IMG/VR virus record: IMGVR_UViG_3300025127_000031
Span: 1 to 60,802 of that record
Reading direction: 5' to 3' (one strand)
Length of the DNA: 60,802 bases
From: a virus
Positions 8,828 through 20,849 of this stretch are shown piece by piece. The notes under the pieces were generated by a model that saw nothing but the letters and a program-made list of their open reading frames with translations, was not told the DNA's origin and made no database searches. The position numbers and the translations under genes are program-made. Positions within the stretch are counted from its first letter, which is position 1, and each line of letters opens with the position of its first letter.

Positions 8828-9562
8828 GTGTCTACTTTAATCACCAATCTTCCTCCGGTTAAGGTATGGGTACGTAAAGAATATCTTCGTGATCTTCGTG
8901 ACGGTCATGGTGAATATACTCTGGGTTATTGGACCAGTGTAAAATCTATTCCTGGGCGGGTATTTTATTTTGAAACGTTCCTCCCAGAGTACGGTGCTTT
9001 ATTTGACAAGTTACCAATTTCTGCTTTCTTGCTTTGGGACTCAGACTTTCCTGATGCCCCTGAAACACCAGCACCAGATTTACCGCTAGAAGAATTACAA
9101 TTTTGGAATTGTTTTAGTTATGACATTACCACCCTGGAAAAAAATCTTACGTTCACAATGGGATGGGAAATCAGAACCAAAACCCACGGTACTATCCCTG
9201 GCGAATATTTGTTTACTATTGACAGTTTTAATGGCGACCGCTCTAGGACTGATATCTCTTTCGCAGAGACGCCGGATGAACACAAATCCTTCAATATTAT
9301 TGGGTTGCCGAATGGTCAAATTGCAGCGTATCCCAACAACAGATGCCGTCTTGCTGACCCTTCTTTGTCCCCCGAGACGTTAAAACAACCTGACTTTCTT
9401 GTTTCAAGTCGATATTTTCAAGTTGAAAGTCCCAATGCAAAATGGGGACGCCTTGGTGAATCAGAAGAATATTTCTGGGAAACAAAAACTGAGCAAAACA
9501 AAAAACCAAATGAATATATGCTTTTTATTCCAGCGGATGATCAAGAAGAATTTGACCGGTAG
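8828..9562 (+). CDS. Uncharacterised beta-rich phage protein
   Basis: A 244-residue protein starting with GTG three bases after the CP12-like stop. It is rich in aromatic residues and acidic surface segments (LPEYGALFDKLPISAFLLWD, DIQ-like Asp/Glu tail) and has no Cys motif or membrane segment. No catalytic signature is visible. The compact spacing suggests co-translation with the CP12-like gene. It could be a conserved cyanophage structural or host-takeover protein; I cannot choose. Confidence 0.6.
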   Translation: MSTLITNLPPVKVWVRKEYLRDLRDGHGEYTLGYWTSVKSIPGRVFYFETFLPEYGALFDKLPISAFLLWDSDFPDAPETPAPDLPLEELQFWNCFSYDITTLEKNLTFTMGWEIRTKTHGTIPGEYLFTIDSFNGDRSRTDISFAETPDEHKSFNIIGLPNGQIAAYPNNRCRLADPSLSPETLKQPDFLVSSRYFQVESPNAKWGRLGESEEYFWETKTEQNKKPNEYMLFIPADDQEEFDR

Positions 9563-9589: not shown

Positions 9590-9736
9590 ATGCAAGAGAT
9601 TCTTACTAATCCTATTACTTGGATTATTATTGCAGCAGCCTCTGAAATCATCGCTTTATCTCCTTTAAAAGATAACAGCATTATTCAAGTTGTATTAAAG
9701 GCTGTGCTTAAGCTTAAGCCTTCTGTAAAAAAGTAA
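9590..9736 (+). CDS. Small membrane protein, zero-frame product of a frameshift pair
   Basis: A 48-residue protein: one hydrophobic segment (WIIIAAASEIIAL, residues 11-23), then an amphipathic Lys-rich tail (VVLKAVLKLKPSVKK). Size and layout resemble small phage holins, and lysis genes follow on the other strand, but this is inference. The last sense codons form the heptamer A AAA AAG (9727-9733), immediately followed by the TAA stop. Slipping back one base there would continue into the open frame at 9733-9903. Confidence 0.65.
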   Translation: MQEILTNPITWIIIAAASEIIALSPLKDNSIIQVVLKAVLKLKPSVKK

Positions 9737-9903
9737 AAGGCATCACTCCTGACGATGCTGTGTTTCTTGCACAGTGGTCGTTACGGAGTGACAAACAACG
9801 CATTAAAGATGAAATAAAACGTCGTAAAAACATGGCTTTAACAAGTCATCGGATTGATGAAGCTATTCGTAAATACAAAGAAGAAACAGGCTGGGATGAT
9901 TAA
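9733..9903 (+). CDS. Predicted -1 frameshift extension of the small membrane protein
   Basis: An open frame of 56 codons that lacks a convincing start codon at its 5' end but begins exactly at the A AAA AAG slippery heptamer of the preceding gene. A -1 shift would give a 104-residue fusion: membrane segment plus a charged helical tail (KQRIKDEIKRRK, IDEAIRKYKEETGWDD). Nine bases after the heptamer, TCACTCC (9743-9749) pairs with GGAGTGA (9785-9791), enclosing ACGA/TCGT and CTGTG/CACAG stems. The first in-frame GTG is at 9760, so independent initiation is a weaker alternative. The stop overlaps that of the convergent zinc-ribbon gene. Confidence 0.6.
   Translation, partial: VKGITPDDAVFLAQWSLRSDKQRIKDEIKRRKNMALTSHRIDEAIRKYKEETGWDD
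9743..9791 (+). promoter_or_regulatory. Stem-loop stimulator for -1 frameshifting
   Basis: Three stacked stems on one axis: TCACTCC/GGAGTGA, ACGA/TCGT and CTGTG/CACAG, separated by small internal loops, closed by a seven-base loop. It starts nine bases downstream of the slippery heptamer at 9727-9733, within the spacing used by known bacterial -1 frameshift signals. Confidence 0.65.
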
Positions 9904-10058
9904 TCATCTAATGCTTGAAACCAAAAGATAAATCCATCATTTGCTTCAACCCAACGTTTGGTTCTGTAGGCATCTTCTTTTTCCATTGTCTCGCATTTGC
10001 GCGTCTTGCCACACTCCCAACAAACGTTGACACGAATGGGTTTATCTTTATTTTTCAT
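9900..10058 (-). CDS. Small zinc-ribbon-like protein
   Basis: A 52-residue protein starting at ATG 10056-10058. CWECGKTRKC near residues 13-22 supplies three closely spaced Cys, and the rest is rich in Trp, Lys and acidic residues (RTKRWVEANDGFIFWF). Only one knuckle is present, so a full zinc site would need another partner or dimer. Its stop lies in the TTAA shared with the convergent frameshift frame. No function is recognised. Confidence 0.6.
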   Translation of the reverse strand: MKNKDKPIRVNVCWECGKTRKCETMEKEDAYRTKRWVEANDGFIFWFQALDD

Positions 10059-10243
10059 TGTATTAATTTATTTACTAATAAAACTATAGAAGCAACACCC
10101 CAAAAACCCAATCCAAAAATTGCTATTGCAATTCCTTCATACGTTAAAAACTTTTTTGGTAATTTCGTATTTAAGGTCTCGGTCTTCTTTACCGTTCCAT
10201 CCTCCGTTGATTCTGTAACAACAGGCGTCGAATCCTTGTCCAA
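10055..10243 (-). CDS. Small single-pass membrane protein overlapping endolysin 3' end
   Basis: A 62-residue frame starting with TTG (AGGT seven bases upstream). Residues 1-29 are polar and Thr/Glu/Lys-rich; residues 34-58 (YEGIAIAIFGLGFWGVASIV and following) form a clear membrane helix. The first 107 bases lie inside the endolysin gene in another frame; the membrane helix is encoded mostly beyond the endolysin stop. An out-of-phase membrane gene next to an endolysin suggests a holin or spanin-type role. A shorter form beginning after the endolysin stop is possible. Confidence 0.5.
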   Translation of the reverse strand: MDKDSTPVVTESTEDGTVKKTETLNTKLPKKFLTYEGIAIAIFGLGFWGVASIVLLVNKLIQ

Positions 10244-10817
10244 GACAAATACCTAATAGATCGTTATCTTTAATCCATGTTAAAGCAGATCTAAAAGGAT
10301 AATGATCAGTTACATAGTCACATCCGCGTTCCACGATAAGTGGATCATGCAATTCAGCGGCCAGGCGCGTGTAGTTGTACTTTCCAGTTAGCATTAGTAC
10401 ACCTGTACCTTTATATTTAGGTCCGTCATTTGGACCATTACCTAGATCAGCACGGTTGTTATAGGCTGTTCCATCGGCGATTTCTTTCATCCAACGAAAG
10501 TTTCCTGTTTCATGCATAAGGTTTGCAATTAACATGCACATAGCTTCTTTATGCTGATCAAAACCTGTTGTCATCAACAACTTGTTGAAATCACCACAAA
10601 AAGTTGCATCAAAGTTACTGGCTTGATATCCAGTAAGCTGCTGCATGATGTCAGGTGTGATAATTTTCCCTGAAGGATTTGCAGGACCTGCACGATACAG
10701 ATCCGCAAATTCATCAAGTTGTTCATCTGTTAAAACAGATTCAAGCCAGTTCCAGGCGGCAAGCTGGTGGGATTCTTCTTTGTAATACTTAGCTGCTTTG
10801 CTCAGGTTGATCGTCAT
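10137..10817 (-). CDS. Endolysin, GH19 chitinase/lysozyme-like
   Basis: A 226-residue protein from the ATG at 10815-10817 (upstream Met codons belong to a frame occupied by another gene). Catalytic MHETGNF (101-107, E103) is followed by AYNNRADLGN and DGPKYKGTGVLMLTGKYNY, the standard GH19 active-site block, and INGGWNGKEDR near the C-terminus, also a GH19 hallmark. It cuts peptidoglycan at the end of infection. No signal peptide is seen, so it needs a holin. The gene overlaps the neighbouring small gene at its 5' end by 29 bases and the membrane gene at its 3' end. Confidence 0.88.
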   Translation of the reverse strand: MTINLSKAAKYYKEESHQLAAWNWLESVLTDEQLDEFADLYRAGPANPSGKIITPDIMQQLTGYQASNFDATFCGDFNKLLMTTGFDQHKEAMCMLIANLMHETGNFRWMKEIADGTAYNNRADLGNGPNDGPKYKGTGVLMLTGKYNYTRLAAELHDPLIVERGCDYVTDHYPFRSALTWIKDNDLLGICLGQGFDACCYRINGGWNGKEDRDLKYEITKKVFNV

Positions 10818-10965
10818 TGGTTTCTTCTTCGGGCTCGTATTCCAGGCTATCAATATATTGGCCCAGAAGTTGGCTAGAAAACTGAATAAGGTTTCCATCA
10901 TTAGAAGCACGGGCGGCTGCAAAAGAATTAATTGCAGAAACCAGTTCAGACTTTTTGCAAGCCAT
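10789..10965 (-). CDS. Small conserved-looking phage protein
   Basis: A 58-residue protein, MACKKSELVSAINSFAAARA at the N-terminus, a helical middle and a very acidic tail (EYEPEEETNDDQPEQSS). It lies between the S74 fibre gene and the endolysin and overlaps the endolysin start by 29 bases in another frame. The helix-acidic-tail layout is common in small phage proteins of unknown role. No function can be assigned. Confidence 0.6.
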   Translation of the reverse strand: MACKKSELVSAINSFAAARASNDGNLIQFSSQLLGQYIDSLEYEPEEETNDDQPEQSS

Positions 10966-13213: not shown

Positions 13214-13239
13214 TAGTTTTAAGCCATTACGGGCTTAAT
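13214..13239 (-). terminator. Hairpin after fibre gene, copy 1
   Basis: TTAAGCC (13219-13225) pairs with GGCTTAA (13232-13238) directly after the stop of the 521-residue fibre gene. A nearly identical 26-base element lies after the next fibre gene at 15191. It lacks a long T tract on the minus strand and may act as an attenuator or RNA 3' end protector. Confidence 0.55.
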
Positions 13240-13241
13240 TT

Positions 13242-14807
13242 TTATGCATCAGTTGGATAAGTAAACGTGCCAATCCAATACATTCCGGTTAAGTTTACAT
13301 TATCTCCGCCTCCAAAATAAAAATTATTGCCTCCTTGGTGGTAAAGATAAAAGTTGGCTGTATTAGGAGTTCCATAGTTTGTTGTTATTTCGTTTGTTGT
13401 ATTATGAAAACTACTTGTGCCTCCTCCTCTTGTTAGCTCACTTGCACCTATAGTTCCATAAGATAAATTAGACATATTAAAAGGTAATCCCCCTATTCGT
13501 GCATGTGCAGTAGTACTAGTAGCACCTGTAGCAAACCTAATATAAATTTCAGCATAAACTTTATTGCCTATTTTTGTGTATCTTCCGGCTTGTATAGAAT
13601 AAGGTACTGCTCCGCCTGACCCATCGTCAACTCCTGCTGCAACAATTGGAGTAAAAGTACCTTCTTCGTAGTCATCTAATGCGTTAGCTGTTGCAGTATC
13701 ACCGTTAAAAGTAATACCGCCTGATGAAAGAATACGTACTTTTTCAGTAATAGCTCCAGCAGCATTGCCCGTTGCAAATTGTAAATAGCCACCTGCTTGG
13801 CCACTGGTTGCATTTTCTTTTCGACCTGCAATAGAAGCTACGCCATAGTTAGCTTGAGTTCCAATATGCGAAGTAAATACAAGAGGCAAACCTGTATCAG
13901 CTGCCAAAGCTGATGTGGACTGAAACATTACACCATCACGATTGCCTACAGCTTCACTTGCTGCTGCGACGTGTAAGATTTCTTCTGGACTGCTTGTGCC
14001 TATACCTGTCCTTCCATCAGCAAGAATAACAAATTTTTCAATTTTATCCCCTGATGAGCCACCCACATCAGATTGTACTTTAAAAGGCTTGGCAGTAGCT
14101 GTTTGTGTCTCTTGATATAAATCAATAGCGCCATCATTGATAGTGATACCACTGTTTTGCGCTAGCTGAACATATGAGCCGGAGGCATTTCCAAAAACAG
14201 CTTTTCCATCGGCATACATCGAAACTCTTTCTACGTTGCTTGAATTTCGATCTAAAATTCTAAAAGCCTCTTCACCATAAGCAGGAGAATGTGTTGTTCT
14301 TTTAATTGTTAATCTGCCAGTTGACTCTATGTCAAGATTTTGTGAAGCAAAAAATGCTGCTCCAGTACTACCAGTAAGTCCAATCCTGTTACTAGTAGTT
14401 AAATTTCCTCCAATGTATAAATCACCATCTGTTTGTAATCCTGTATGCCAAACATTGGCACTTGTATCTTTGGCAGCCCAAACATAGTCAGTTCCGCCTA
14501 AATTTGTTCCGGTCTGGAACCAAGAGTTAGTTGCTGTGCTCTGAGCTGATAAAGAAGTTGTTGTAATTGCTCCAGTAAAAGTTGTATTTCCAGTGCTTGC
14601 AATAGTTAAAATTGCAGAGCCACCAACACCTAAAGCAATTGAGTTTGCACCTGGAGAATATAAACCGGTATCTAAATCATCTTGGAATGACAAAGCTGGA
14701 GCACTAGCTGTACCATCTGCTAATGCTGCCGTTCGATCGTTTGCCAGCACAATATTAGGATCACTAGCATCCGTATGCTGTAAATTTGTTAGCCTAAGAG
14801 TGCTCAT
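13242..14807 (-). CDS. Tail fibre protein with shared beta module
   Basis: A 521-residue beta-rich protein. Near the N-terminus it carries ASAPALSFQDDLDTGLYSPG and LTIASTGNTTF, the module common to this gene cluster. Around residue 370 it has RILSSGGITFNGDTATANA and DDYEEGTFTPI, a motif marking the start of many phage receptor-binding tips. The C-terminal 150 residues, rich in Gly, Tyr and Asn, would form the variable tip. No S74 chaperone is present. It is probably one of several fibre subunits or a chain connected end to end. Confidence 0.75.
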   Translation of the reverse strand: MSTLRLTNLQHTDASDPNIVLANDRTAALADGTASAPALSFQDDLDTGLYSPGANSIALGVGGSAILTIASTGNTTFTGAITTTSLSAQSTATNSWFQTGTNLGGTDYVWAAKDTSANVWHTGLQTDGDLYIGGNLTTSNRIGLTGSTGAAFFASQNLDIESTGRLTIKRTTHSPAYGEEAFRILDRNSSNVERVSMYADGKAVFGNASGSYVQLAQNSGITINDGAIDLYQETQTATAKPFKVQSDVGGSSGDKIEKFVILADGRTGIGTSSPEEILHVAAASEAVGNRDGVMFQSTSALAADTGLPLVFTSHIGTQANYGVASIAGRKENATSGQAGGYLQFATGNAAGAITEKVRILSSGGITFNGDTATANALDDYEEGTFTPIVAAGVDDGSGGAVPYSIQAGRYTKIGNKVYAEIYIRFATGATSTTAHARIGGLPFNMSNLSYGTIGASELTRGGGTSSFHNTTNEITTNYGTPNTANFYLYHQGGNNFYFGGGDNVNLTGMYWIGTFTYPTDA

Positions 14808-14831
14808 TTCTTTGTCACATACCAGTATTGT

Positions 14832-15170
14832 TTATTCTAGCGTTACCACACTAGTTTCCCAGGGTACGCCAGATTCGTGTGTGGGCTGTTGTTGTTCGTT
14901 TAAATTCTCAGTTATTTGTGATTCATAGTCAAGTACTTTTTCTGGACCAACTTGATCTTTTACCCAACCAATACAAGTTTCTTCTCGTAAATCTTCATAG
15001 GGAATAAACCCAGGGCTAAGTGGGTTAGCTGTGAAATTACAAAAGCTTTGAATCGTTGCTACGTAATCTGGTTCACGTTCAGCAGAAAGCTCCCAATAAA
15101 TACGTTCTACAACACCCTCGCGAATTTCGCGATCCATGGTGAGAACTTTCCAGTTATAGTTATCAGACAT
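14832..15170 (-). CDS. Small fibre-associated protein, NYNWK family-like
   Basis: A 112-residue protein beginning MSDNYNWKVLTMDREI, a start I associate with small proteins near tail fibres of cyanophages, followed by a beta domain and GFIPYEDLREETCIGWVKD, a helix-forming end. The tail (NEQQQPTHESGVPWE) is polar. It sits between two fibre genes like the 109-residue protein at 12850, so the array alternates fibre and small accessory genes. Role unproven; a folding helper is a reasonable guess. Confidence 0.65.
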   Translation of the reverse strand: MSDNYNWKVLTMDREIREGVVERIYWELSAEREPDYVATIQSFCNFTANPLSPGFIPYEDLREETCIGWVKDQVGPEKVLDYESQITENLNEQQQPTHESGVPWETSVVTLE

Positions 15171-15190
15171 TGCTATTAAGCTTTAGGTAT

Positions 15191-15216
15191 TAGTTTTAAG
15201 CCATTGCGGGCTTAAT
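15191..15216 (-). terminator. Hairpin after fibre gene, copy 2
   Basis: The element TAGTTTTAAGCCATTGCGGG and its last bases match the one at 13214-13239 at all but one position, again placed just after a fibre gene stop (15231). TTAAGCC pairs with GGCTTAA. The duplicate likely moved together with the fibre gene unit. Confidence 0.55.
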
Positions 15217-15230
15217 AAATATGTTTTAAA

Positions 15231-16604
15231 TTATGCGGTCATGTAAACAATACTTCCTCTAAAGAAATCAGCCCCTGTGCTGGCAGAGCCTGCAATCGGT
15301 CGTGAGGTTTCAAAAAACAAAACGCTGCTATTACTATTTACGTAATTTAAAACAAGTTTATTTGTTCCAAATATACAATTTGTGGCTTCTACACCTGTAT
15401 TTGAATTGTAATCACCTGGCTGAAACGGAAGTCCACCTACTGCTGAATAATCAGTTGAGTCGTCCAGACTGGTATAATTAAACTGGAAATTAACAGTTAC
15501 TATTTTCCCAACTTTTGTATAATACCCTTCGGCGTTTGTAATACCATTAAAGTTATTATTGCCCACAGGAGTCCAGTTTCCCTCTTCGTAATCATCTAAT
15601 GCGTTAGCTGTTGCAGTATCACCGTTAAAAGTAATACCGCCTGTTGAAAGAATACGTATTGTTTCACTGCCATTCGATTCAAATATAGTTAGTCCTCCAC
15701 TACCACTCATAAACAATAGATTTTGACTATCTGCTCTTATATGAACACTGTCATTAGTACCAGCAGTTCCGTGTGAACCTATTGTGATACGTGCATCAGC
15801 AGCAGCAGTACCAATTTCAGCATCGCTGTCAAACGTAGCTGCTCCACTCATGTTAATGGTGGCTTTAGTGATATTTGAATTGACTACTGTGAAGCCATCA
15901 CTGTCATCAACTTGAACATAAGTTCCAGATCCAGGTGTTGAGATTGTGCGAAGGTATCCAGTAAAAGTGGCATTGCCATTTGAACCGTTGAGGTTAATTC
16001 TTTCTGTATTGTTTGAATCGCCAACTTTTAAACCTGCGTTATAAATAGTAACTGTATCTTGGCTGGAATCCATGTTAAAAATTAACTTGGAAGCAGAACC
16101 ACTTGAAGCAGGATCAGTTGTAATCCTGACTGAATTACTATTATCACCTACATCTGCAATTTTTATTGTTCCGCCAGCAAAAGTGGCAGATCCATCGTGA
16201 AAAATCCTTGCCTGATACCCAGCTGGTGAGTCAACTTTATATACACCAACAGCGGTATGTGTTGAATCTCCAGTGCCATTAATATATAAACCGTAACTGT
16301 TATTATTCCAAATCTTTGCACTACTTGCTGTTGTTGAACTATAGTCACCAAATGTCAAAGATCCCGCGCTAGTTTCTAAATTAGTAAATGTAGTTGTTCC
16401 ATCACTTGCAATAGTTAATCTTGCAGAGCCGCCAACAGATAGTCCTAGTTGGTTAGCGCCTGGTCTAAATAATCCTGTATCACTATCTCCATCAAAAACT
16501 AATGACGGTGAGGCTGCAGTGCCCGTATTAGCAAGCGTAGTAACTGGCGCACCTAAAACAGTGAGACCATTTAAAGTTCCGTTGCCTTGCAGAGTTAAAG
16601 TCAT
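15231..16604 (-). CDS. Tail fibre protein with shared beta module
   Basis: A 457-residue paralogue of the 521-residue fibre. The N-terminus has ASPSLVFDGDSDTGLFRPG and GGSARLTIASDGTTTF; near residue 330 it has RILSTGGITFNGDTATANA and DDYEEGNWTPV. The DNA coding this second block (about 15,590-15,660) is nearly identical to 13,670-13,740 in the neighbour, whereas the tips beyond it differ. That pattern fits duplication followed by tip exchange. Probable receptor-binding or shaft subunit. Confidence 0.75.
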   Translation of the reverse strand: MTLTLQGNGTLNGLTVLGAPVTTLANTGTAASPSLVFDGDSDTGLFRPGANQLGLSVGGSARLTIASDGTTTFTNLETSAGSLTFGDYSSTTASSAKIWNNNSYGLYINGTGDSTHTAVGVYKVDSPAGYQARIFHDGSATFAGGTIKIADVGDNSNSVRITTDPASSGSASKLIFNMDSSQDTVTIYNAGLKVGDSNNTERINLNGSNGNATFTGYLRTISTPGSGTYVQVDDSDGFTVVNSNITKATINMSGAATFDSDAEIGTAAADARITIGSHGTAGTNDSVHIRADSQNLLFMSGSGGLTIFESNGSETIRILSTGGITFNGDTATANALDDYEEGNWTPVGNNNFNGITNAEGYYTKVGKIVTVNFQFNYTSLDDSTDYSAVGGLPFQPGDYNSNTGVEATNCIFGTNKLVLNYVNSNSSVLFFETSRPIAGSASTGADFFRGSIVYMTA

Positions 16605-20384: not shown

Positions 20385-20849
20385 ATGAGTAAAAATGATT
20401 CGCTTGGAATTGTGAAAGCTCTTGCTTCAGTTACCGCTGAATTACGTGGGATTCGCAATATCTTGTCTTCAATGTGGCATAGCAGGTATCAAAATGACGA
20501 AACGGATCTCGTTTCACCTGAAGTTTATTCAGATGAATACATTTCTACAGAAGAATGCGCTCGGCGTTTAAATGTAACAGATCAAACAATTCGTAATTGG
20601 ATTTTACAAGGAAAAAAGAAAAAAGATTTTGGTTGGCAGCAAGGTATTCATTACATTGTTATGCCTGTTGGTGCACACAAAAAAATGATTCGTATTCCTT
20701 GGAATCAATTAATTTTGTCTTATAGAAAAGGAGAAGATGTTAATTTAAGAACTTTTGACGCTCCGAATACAATTGATTTGTATAAAACAAGTTCGCGAAA
20801 AGATTTGGATAATATTCCTAATCCTTCTGTTCCCGATTTACCTGATTAA
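20385..20849 (+). CDS. DNA-binding protein with excisionase/MerR-type helix-turn-helix
   Basis: A 154-residue protein. Residues 47-75, with STEECARRLNVTDQTIRNWI, form a winged helix-turn-helix of the excisionase/MerR type, followed by a charged turn (QGKKKKDFGWQQGIHYIVMP) and a strand pair resembling the wing. The C-terminal tail is polar. It heads a five-gene plus-strand operon with almost no spacing. A regulatory or replication-accessory role fits. A shorter protein with a similar layout is encoded at 30449. Confidence 0.7.
   Translation: MSKNDSLGIVKALASVTAELRGIRNILSSMWHSRYQNDETDLVSPEVYSDEYISTEECARRLNVTDQTIRNWILQGKKKKDFGWQQGIHYIVMPVGAHKKMIRIPWNQLILSYRKGEDVNLRTFDAPNTIDLYKTSSRKDLDNIPNPSVPDLPD

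Follow-up and report, generated by a model that had tools for sequence, protein, structure and literature searches.

A small membrane-protein gene ending in a slippery heptamer

The window, the whole 60,802-nt stretch of viral DNA that was analyzed, carries on its plus strand a small membrane-protein gene of 48 codons (9590..9736, ATG at 9590) that ends in two lysine codons and a stop. Its last seven coding nucleotides form the slippery heptamer A AAA AAG (9727..9733), read in the zero frame as A9727, AAA (9728-9730) and AAG (9731-9733), and the zero-frame stop, TAA (9734..9736), adjoins it. A TAA at 9715-9717 precedes the open part of the -1 frame, which, read from 9733, continues for 56 codons to the TAA at 9901-9903; a shift into this tail (9733..9903) is expected to yield an extended protein of 104 residues. 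The first ATG, GTG or TTG of the -1 frame is GTG 9760, with no Shine-Dalgarno sequence visible by eye, and it lies inside a 21-pair hairpin (9743..9791) that begins 9 nt past the heptamer. An earlier note on this DNA had described the gene end, the 56 open codons lacking a good start, and the stem-loop; the first two agree with the sequence and the ORF list, and folding recovered the third (49 nt, -28.2 kcal/mol, z -4.49, with 1 of 200 shuffles as good).

Facing this gene on the minus strand is an endolysin-like gene (10137..10922; phrog_181 endolysin, E 5e-24). A 62-residue ORF with one C-terminal hydrophobic stretch (10055..10243, minus strand) overlaps the end of the endolysin ORF and has no PHROG match. 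By its primase, the window is nearest to the S-EIV1 lineage (60% identity over 98%).

The 48-codon protein matches phrog_22542, a family of unknown function (E 1.2e-20), and a Pfam search with this protein and the tail gave no match above the cut-off. An AF2 model of the membrane protein (mean pLDDT 73) has helices at residues 8-23 and 30-42, with lysines at the C-terminus. There were no Rfam matches and no tRNAs were found, and inspection of the base profile upstream of the slip site revealed no obvious Shine-Dalgarno-like stimulator. The heptamer AAAAAAG occurs 37 times in the window, against 38.5 expected, and is not unusual in itself, so the case for frameshifting depends on the comparison with relatives. 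It is the conservation of the heptamer in those relatives, in frame, at the gene end and together with a -1 tail, that goes beyond chance. At 20612-20625 two copies of AAAAAAG stand directly in tandem.

Conservation of the slip site and the -1 frame tail

Relatives were collected from viral contigs, in four scans using the membrane protein or alignments of it and one using the tail, and were supplemented by genome contigs (5 loci) and by opened phage records. The 344 sequences obtained, window included, were reduced to 245 distinct membrane-gene loci by removing duplicates over 270 nt and hits with fewer than 100 nt past the stop. The best 80 relatives were retained from each membrane-protein scan, out of 170, 506, 327 and 325 (two of these totals are "at least" figures), and the loci are therefore a sample. 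Nor are they independent events, since clustering at 50% identity sorts the tails of the first 177 heptamer loci into 20 groups, the largest with 51 members.

In 221 of the 245 sampled distinct loci, the window among them, a canonical heptamer is accompanied by a match to the tail family in the -1 frame. The remaining 24 comprise 21 loci with neither heptamer nor tail and three with a tail only; the heptamer never occurs without the tail. The tail models were trained on 177 of the 221 tails, which match by construction, but all 44 of the heptamer loci outside the training set match them as well, and a count that uses no model gave the same picture, the -1 frame being open for at least 75 nt past the stop in 221/221. 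The earlier note had proposed looking for the heptamer and the open -1 frame in related phages, and the two are indeed kept together.

The form X XXY YYZ is retained even where the heptamer or the amino acids change. A AAA AAG accounts for 215 of the 221 heptamers; three loci (L265, L309 and L332) have A AAA AAC, with Asn as the second residue (Lys-Asn), and three (L028, L048 and the isolate S-EIVl) have G GGA AAG, in a Pro-Gly-Lys-Arg context. Terminal Lys-Lys is encoded by A AAA AAG in 215/234 cases, as compared with 7/345 Lys-Lys pairs in ORFs of at least 200 aa from the collected loci, a control that was drawn from loci collected at an earlier stage of the survey and covers both strands, so that some of its ORFs are perhaps spurious. 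The other lysines of the 177 genes are encoded by AAG 281 times and by AAA 129 times. By this comparison, the slip site is kept across relatives beyond what codon usage accounts for.

The exceptions are varied. The 21 loci with neither feature include a group ending in KPKKQ (A AAG AAA or A AAG AAG), to which the fosmid record MedDCM S37-C6 belongs, as well as L007, L046, L059, L038, L067, L032, L262 and L327. More distant relatives, the microvirus L098 for example, are also among the 21. A tail stands without a canonical heptamer in L057 (G AAA AAG), L311 (A AAG AAG) and S-CBS2. The L098 sequence (MH572431.1, Microviridae SD_MC_44) is an unannotated ORF (2849-2989) of a single-stranded DNA microvirus that matches phrog_22542 (E 1.1e-8) and has no heptamer and no tail match; it is a candidate for the lysis gene of such microviruses.

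The same comparison bears on two ways in which the layout could arise without ribosomal frameshifting. One is a sequencing or assembly indel that split a 104-codon gene, for which a run of six A would be a classic site. The break falls at the identical position in 221/245 loci, including six isolate genomes (S-CBS1, S-CBS3, KBS-S-2A, 7B11-B, S-B28 and S-EIVl), and the membrane frame never extends past its usual end (0/195 loci checked); sequencing error is refuted by this recurrence, and we assign it a negligible probability. The other is slippage of RNA polymerase on the A-run, with mixed mRNAs encoding both forms. Most loci do have runs of 6 or 7 A. However, the run in the window is just six A, which is short for transcriptional slippage, and the 221 heptamer loci keep to the X XXY YYZ phase. 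The three G GGA AAG loci, S-EIVl included, contain no run longer than three, which argues against polymerase slippage there and rejects it as the general cause. We regard it as most improbable.

Substitution patterns point to protein-coding selection on the tail. For pairs of equal length and 75-97% nucleotide identity, which are not independent of one another, tail dN/dS calculated in the -1 frame has a median of 0.079 for the 15 pairs of the window's cluster; the medians of six clusters range from 0.08 to 0.18, versus 0.87-3.7 in the other two frames. The uncorrected ratio over 362 tail pairs is 0.19 in the -1 frame, versus 1.1 and 2.0 in the shifted frames. By these measures, purifying selection acts on the tail in the -1 frame and in neither of the others. 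In a shared first part, the window tail can be aligned with those of other clades, with 31% identity to the S-CBS1 tail, and the C-terminal I.APW-type motif of most clades is absent from it. Two related sequences, S-CBS2 gp048 (E 7.6e-9) and the S-B28 tail (E 6.6e-4), match phrog_6464, another family of unknown function. An AF2 model of the S-CBS1 tail (pTM 0.36) consists of a short helix, a long helix at residues 18-49 and a C-terminus of low confidence.

The tail could instead be a protein in its own right, translated by re-initiation or from a coupled start close to the stop, with the A-run incidental to it. Exactly this layout is found in S-CBS2 (L259, 3750-4240), which encodes the same two proteins with the GTG start of the tail gene overlapping the TAG of the membrane gene; coupled initiation may there stand in place of frameshifting. 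Within the window's clades, the slip site of four loci (L082, L003, L083 and L045) runs into GTGA, so that coupled starts are possible in those loci, and 13 of 14 loci have a GTG at tail codon 9. Across the whole set, an ATG, GTG or TTG is present in the -1 frame upstream of the slip site in 18/221 loci and within 10 codons past it in 36/221; ATG itself falls within those 10 codons in three of the 221. Re-initiation may thus operate in some loci. As a general account it meets difficulties: 169/221 loci have no such codon either upstream or within 10 codons past the slip site, and 10/221 have none in the whole tail. One of these ten is L004, from the same clades as the window, which has GTC at codon 9 and nevertheless retains the tail, ruling out GTG 9760 as a general tail start. 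Re-initiation also leaves unexplained both the use of A AAA AAG in 215 of the 234 terminal lysine pairs and the switches to G GGA AAG and A AAA AAC. We consider it very unlikely.

The comparison of sequences strongly supports a -1 frameshift. A heptamer in the right phase ahead of the zero-frame stop and a -1 frame that is open from the slip site and under protein-coding selection, two of the features by which a programmed -1 frameshift is recognized, are both found here. Most probably, this is a conserved programmed -1 ribosomal frameshift through which a lysis-region membrane protein is made in a short and an extended form. Mechanistically, the simplest explanation is tandem slippage on X XXY YYZ. 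Ribosomes translating the 48-codon gene would arrive at A AAA AAG, where the P- and A-site tRNAs would re-pair one base back, on AAA AAA; a fraction of the ribosomes would bypass the adjacent stop and read on in the -1 frame, so that a single mRNA would be translated into two products, the membrane protein of 48 aa and a version of 104 aa extended at its C-terminus. Among the first 177 loci with a heptamer, either 0 or 3 nt separate A AAA AAG or G GGA AAG from the zero-frame stop, and a stop placed directly or one codon after the heptamer would make the short product the default.

The downstream hairpin: stimulator or terminator

The hairpin at 9743..9791 could be a frameshift stimulator or part of a minus-strand terminator. 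It is a regular feature of the window's clades, where z is below -2 in 14/14 loci from three clusters (cluster means -4.6, -4.7 and -3.3), as compared with -0.27 (sd 1.22) in 240 control windows. In the four largest clusters, of which at most 20 members each were folded, mean z values of -0.4 to -1.2 are near background. Among the relatives, the earlier note's stem-loop is uniformly marked in the window's clades only. Low z values are also seen in a few small groups outside these clades (L033 pair, -3.7; L048, -3.5; L152, -4.7; L097, -2.9).

Covariation was assessed with 13 distinct sequences and the structure taken from the window itself; some members are shifted in register and the stretch is coding. 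Under these terms 86.4% of cells pair, and four pairs have changed on both sides in a compensatory manner; the covariation score was reached by 0/500 shuffles and the paired fraction by 1/500. The RNAalifold consensus was weak (-3.03 kcal/mol) and did not return the full hairpin.

A terminator-like site with a T-rich tail was predicted on the minus strand at 9758-9740 (1 found, 0.5 expected). It sits within the tail ORF and faces the convergent endolysin gene. The hairpin might on this basis be the intrinsic terminator of a convergent minus-strand endolysin operon, in which case the frameshift itself would still stand. The lysin is on the opposite strand in 14/14 loci of the clades that have the hairpin, and the clusters that fold near background are the four largest. 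Against this, the 9-nt spacing fits a stimulator, a hairpin of this kind is missing from the convergent loci L021 and L030, and the L033 pair, L048 and L152 fold well outside these clades. We judge the terminator reading to be a serious possibility without favoring it, and one hairpin might possibly fill both roles.

The arrangement invites comparison with E. coli dnaX, whose frameshift signal consists of A AAA AAG, tandem lysine codons and a downstream stem. Heptamer and tandem lysine codons are the same here, and a dnaX-like stem is present in the window's clades. The dnaX frameshift product is the shorter chain, however, whereas the shifted product here would be the longer one.

Genomic setting and possible role of the two forms

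Synteny with lysis genes is conserved across much of the sample. A lysin homologue lies in the examined flank of 165/195 loci, on the same strand and no more than 1 kb downstream in 146 of them and on the opposite strand in 18. The larger set gives a similar result, with a lysin no more than 3.5 kb downstream in 202/245 (184 same strand, 18 opposite); it was not seen within that distance in 43/245, partly because of contig ends. Upstream of the membrane gene, 131/195 loci encode an 81-aa protein with an N-terminal hydrophobic segment. A sequence similar to the window's 62-residue ORF lies downstream of the membrane gene in 10/195, likewise on the minus strand.

S-CBS1, S-CBS3 and KBS-S-2A share the order fibre, 81-aa gene, membrane gene, tail and lysozyme/endolysin; KBS-S-2A has two additional hypothetical genes following the fibre. 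The membrane gene and tail of the autographiviruses S-B28 and 7B11-B are located between fibre-region genes and the small terminase gene, an interval that in 7B11-B also contains an endonuclease VII gene. T7 has its holin gene, 17.5, at this place, which in S-B28 is flanked by the tail fibre and small terminase genes. The two frames are annotated in S-CBS1 and S-CBS3 as two separate hypothetical proteins, and in the other isolates that have the site one or both halves are left unannotated.

The earlier note had called the membrane protein holin-like. Gene order and size fit that description, but neither PHROGs nor Pfam gave a holin family match. According to passages of PMC12843271 on MaMV-DC ORF70, class III holins are small, have one hydrophobic segment and a charged C-terminus, and are encoded near the endolysin. 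The protein described here may resemble them by these criteria: its gene is near an endolysin gene, convergent in the window; it has 48 aa, versus 134 aa for ORF70 (in the same passages of PMC12843271); and the predicted helix 8-23 and the C-terminal lysines would correspond to the hydrophobic segment and the charged end. The word "frameshift" is absent from the PMC12843271 text. The alternative is that the protein is some other small phage membrane factor that merely happens to be located in the lysis region. The missing family match, the 43/245 loci in which no lysin was seen (some at contig ends), and the gene upstream in the window, which is assigned to phrog_3704 (not lysis) and is in that position in 17/195 loci, are compatible with this. 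The frequency of lysins in the flank (165/195, with 146 on the same strand within 1 kb) and the position in S-B28 and 7B11-B, close to the place of the T7 holin gene, speak against it. A role outside lysis is a serious possibility, in our estimation, though not the better guess; a small holin-like protein is the likeliest identity of the short form.

The phrog_3704 gene (8828-9562) is labelled "ferredoxin" in that family and PurM or ferredoxin in matching GenBank records; Pfam detected neither, and both names look unreliable.

Tail assembly chaperones, together with a few structural genes, supply most of the known conserved frameshifts of phages. Passages of PMC3091744 and PMC6316719 document frameshifts of dsDNA phages in tail proteins and tail chaperones, among them lambda G/GT and its relatives, P2 E/E+E' and SPP1 17.5/17.5*, where a -1 slip extends the C-terminus of some chains. 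The present case is likewise a phage gene in which a -1 slip would add a C-terminal part, but unlike the chaperones it concerns a membrane protein in the lysis region, not a gene between the major tail protein and the tape measure. Membership of the chaperones was rejected: there was no chaperone family match, tape-measure hits were weak (E 0.16 and 0.02), and in S-CBS1, S-CBS3 and KBS-S-2A the gene follows the tail and fibre genes and precedes the lysin. A passage of PMC10885494 mentions an earlier claim that, in the RNA phage MS2, frameshifting leads into the lysis gene. Among the open-access matches listed, which include passages of PMC6157547, PMC13274417 and PMC8163748, none described programmed frameshifting in a lysis-region gene of a cyanophage or in a holin.

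Phage lysis proteins that exist in two forms offer a second comparison. Lambda S105/S107 and SPP1 24.1/24.1* and 26/26* are dual-start holins. Dual-start holins, like the gene described here, give two forms from one gene; they differ at the N-terminus, through two starts, whereas the forms predicted here would differ at the C-terminus, through frameshifting. In SPP1, as passages of PMC6316719 describe it, each of two lysis genes gives two membrane-protein forms (24.1/24.1* and 26/26*), and the small membrane proteins gp24.1 and gp26 occur together with an endolysin. The counterpart of the SPP1 pair, and of PBSX XhlA/XhlB/XlyA, would here be the 81-aa neighbour and the 48-aa protein. Unlike in those sets, the hydrophobic segment of the 81-aa protein is N-terminal. 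Its matches to phrog_937 (hemolysin) are weak (E 0.0024 and 0.00054), which makes it at best a tentative XhlA homologue.

Our proposal, by analogy with two-form lysis proteins, is a long form that tunes or couples the formation of holes. A cytoplasmic position of its tail is suggested by lysines at the C-terminus of the membrane protein and acidic residues at the N-terminus. We infer that slippage takes place in cells at a rate that makes the long form a minority in fixed ratio; with its charged tail presumably on the cytoplasmic side, it would tune hole formation or tie the membrane complex to a partner. Because the signal is usually found near a lysin gene, frameshifting may help to control the timing of host burst. 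The specific idea of a lysis timer, with the short chain as the hole former and the frameshifted minority chain as a brake or coupler, is speculative and, in our estimation, less likely than not. Were it true, cyanophages would set lysis timing by recoding instead of using two start sites or encoding an antiholin separately, and the loci with neither tail nor heptamer would be phages that have replaced such control.

Several lineages of cyanophages have the gene in or near their lysis modules: S-CBS1/S-CBS3/KBS-S-2A, the Autographiviridae S-B28 and 7B11-B, and S-EIVl-like phages. It would be a widespread recoded lysis-region gene. Control of lysis is poorly known in cyanophages, and the isolates make the question directly testable.

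Two further observations concern another part of the window. Neighbouring large genes on the minus strand (13242-16604) share repeated coding blocks at 13648/15568 (90%) and 14574/16383 (73%) and resemble duplicated fibre or adhesin genes. A 33-nt repeat at 13214-13246 and 15191-15223, 88% identical and mostly intergenic, has an AAGCC...GGGCTT inverted repeat in each copy, and the two copies are possibly terminators between the duplicated genes.
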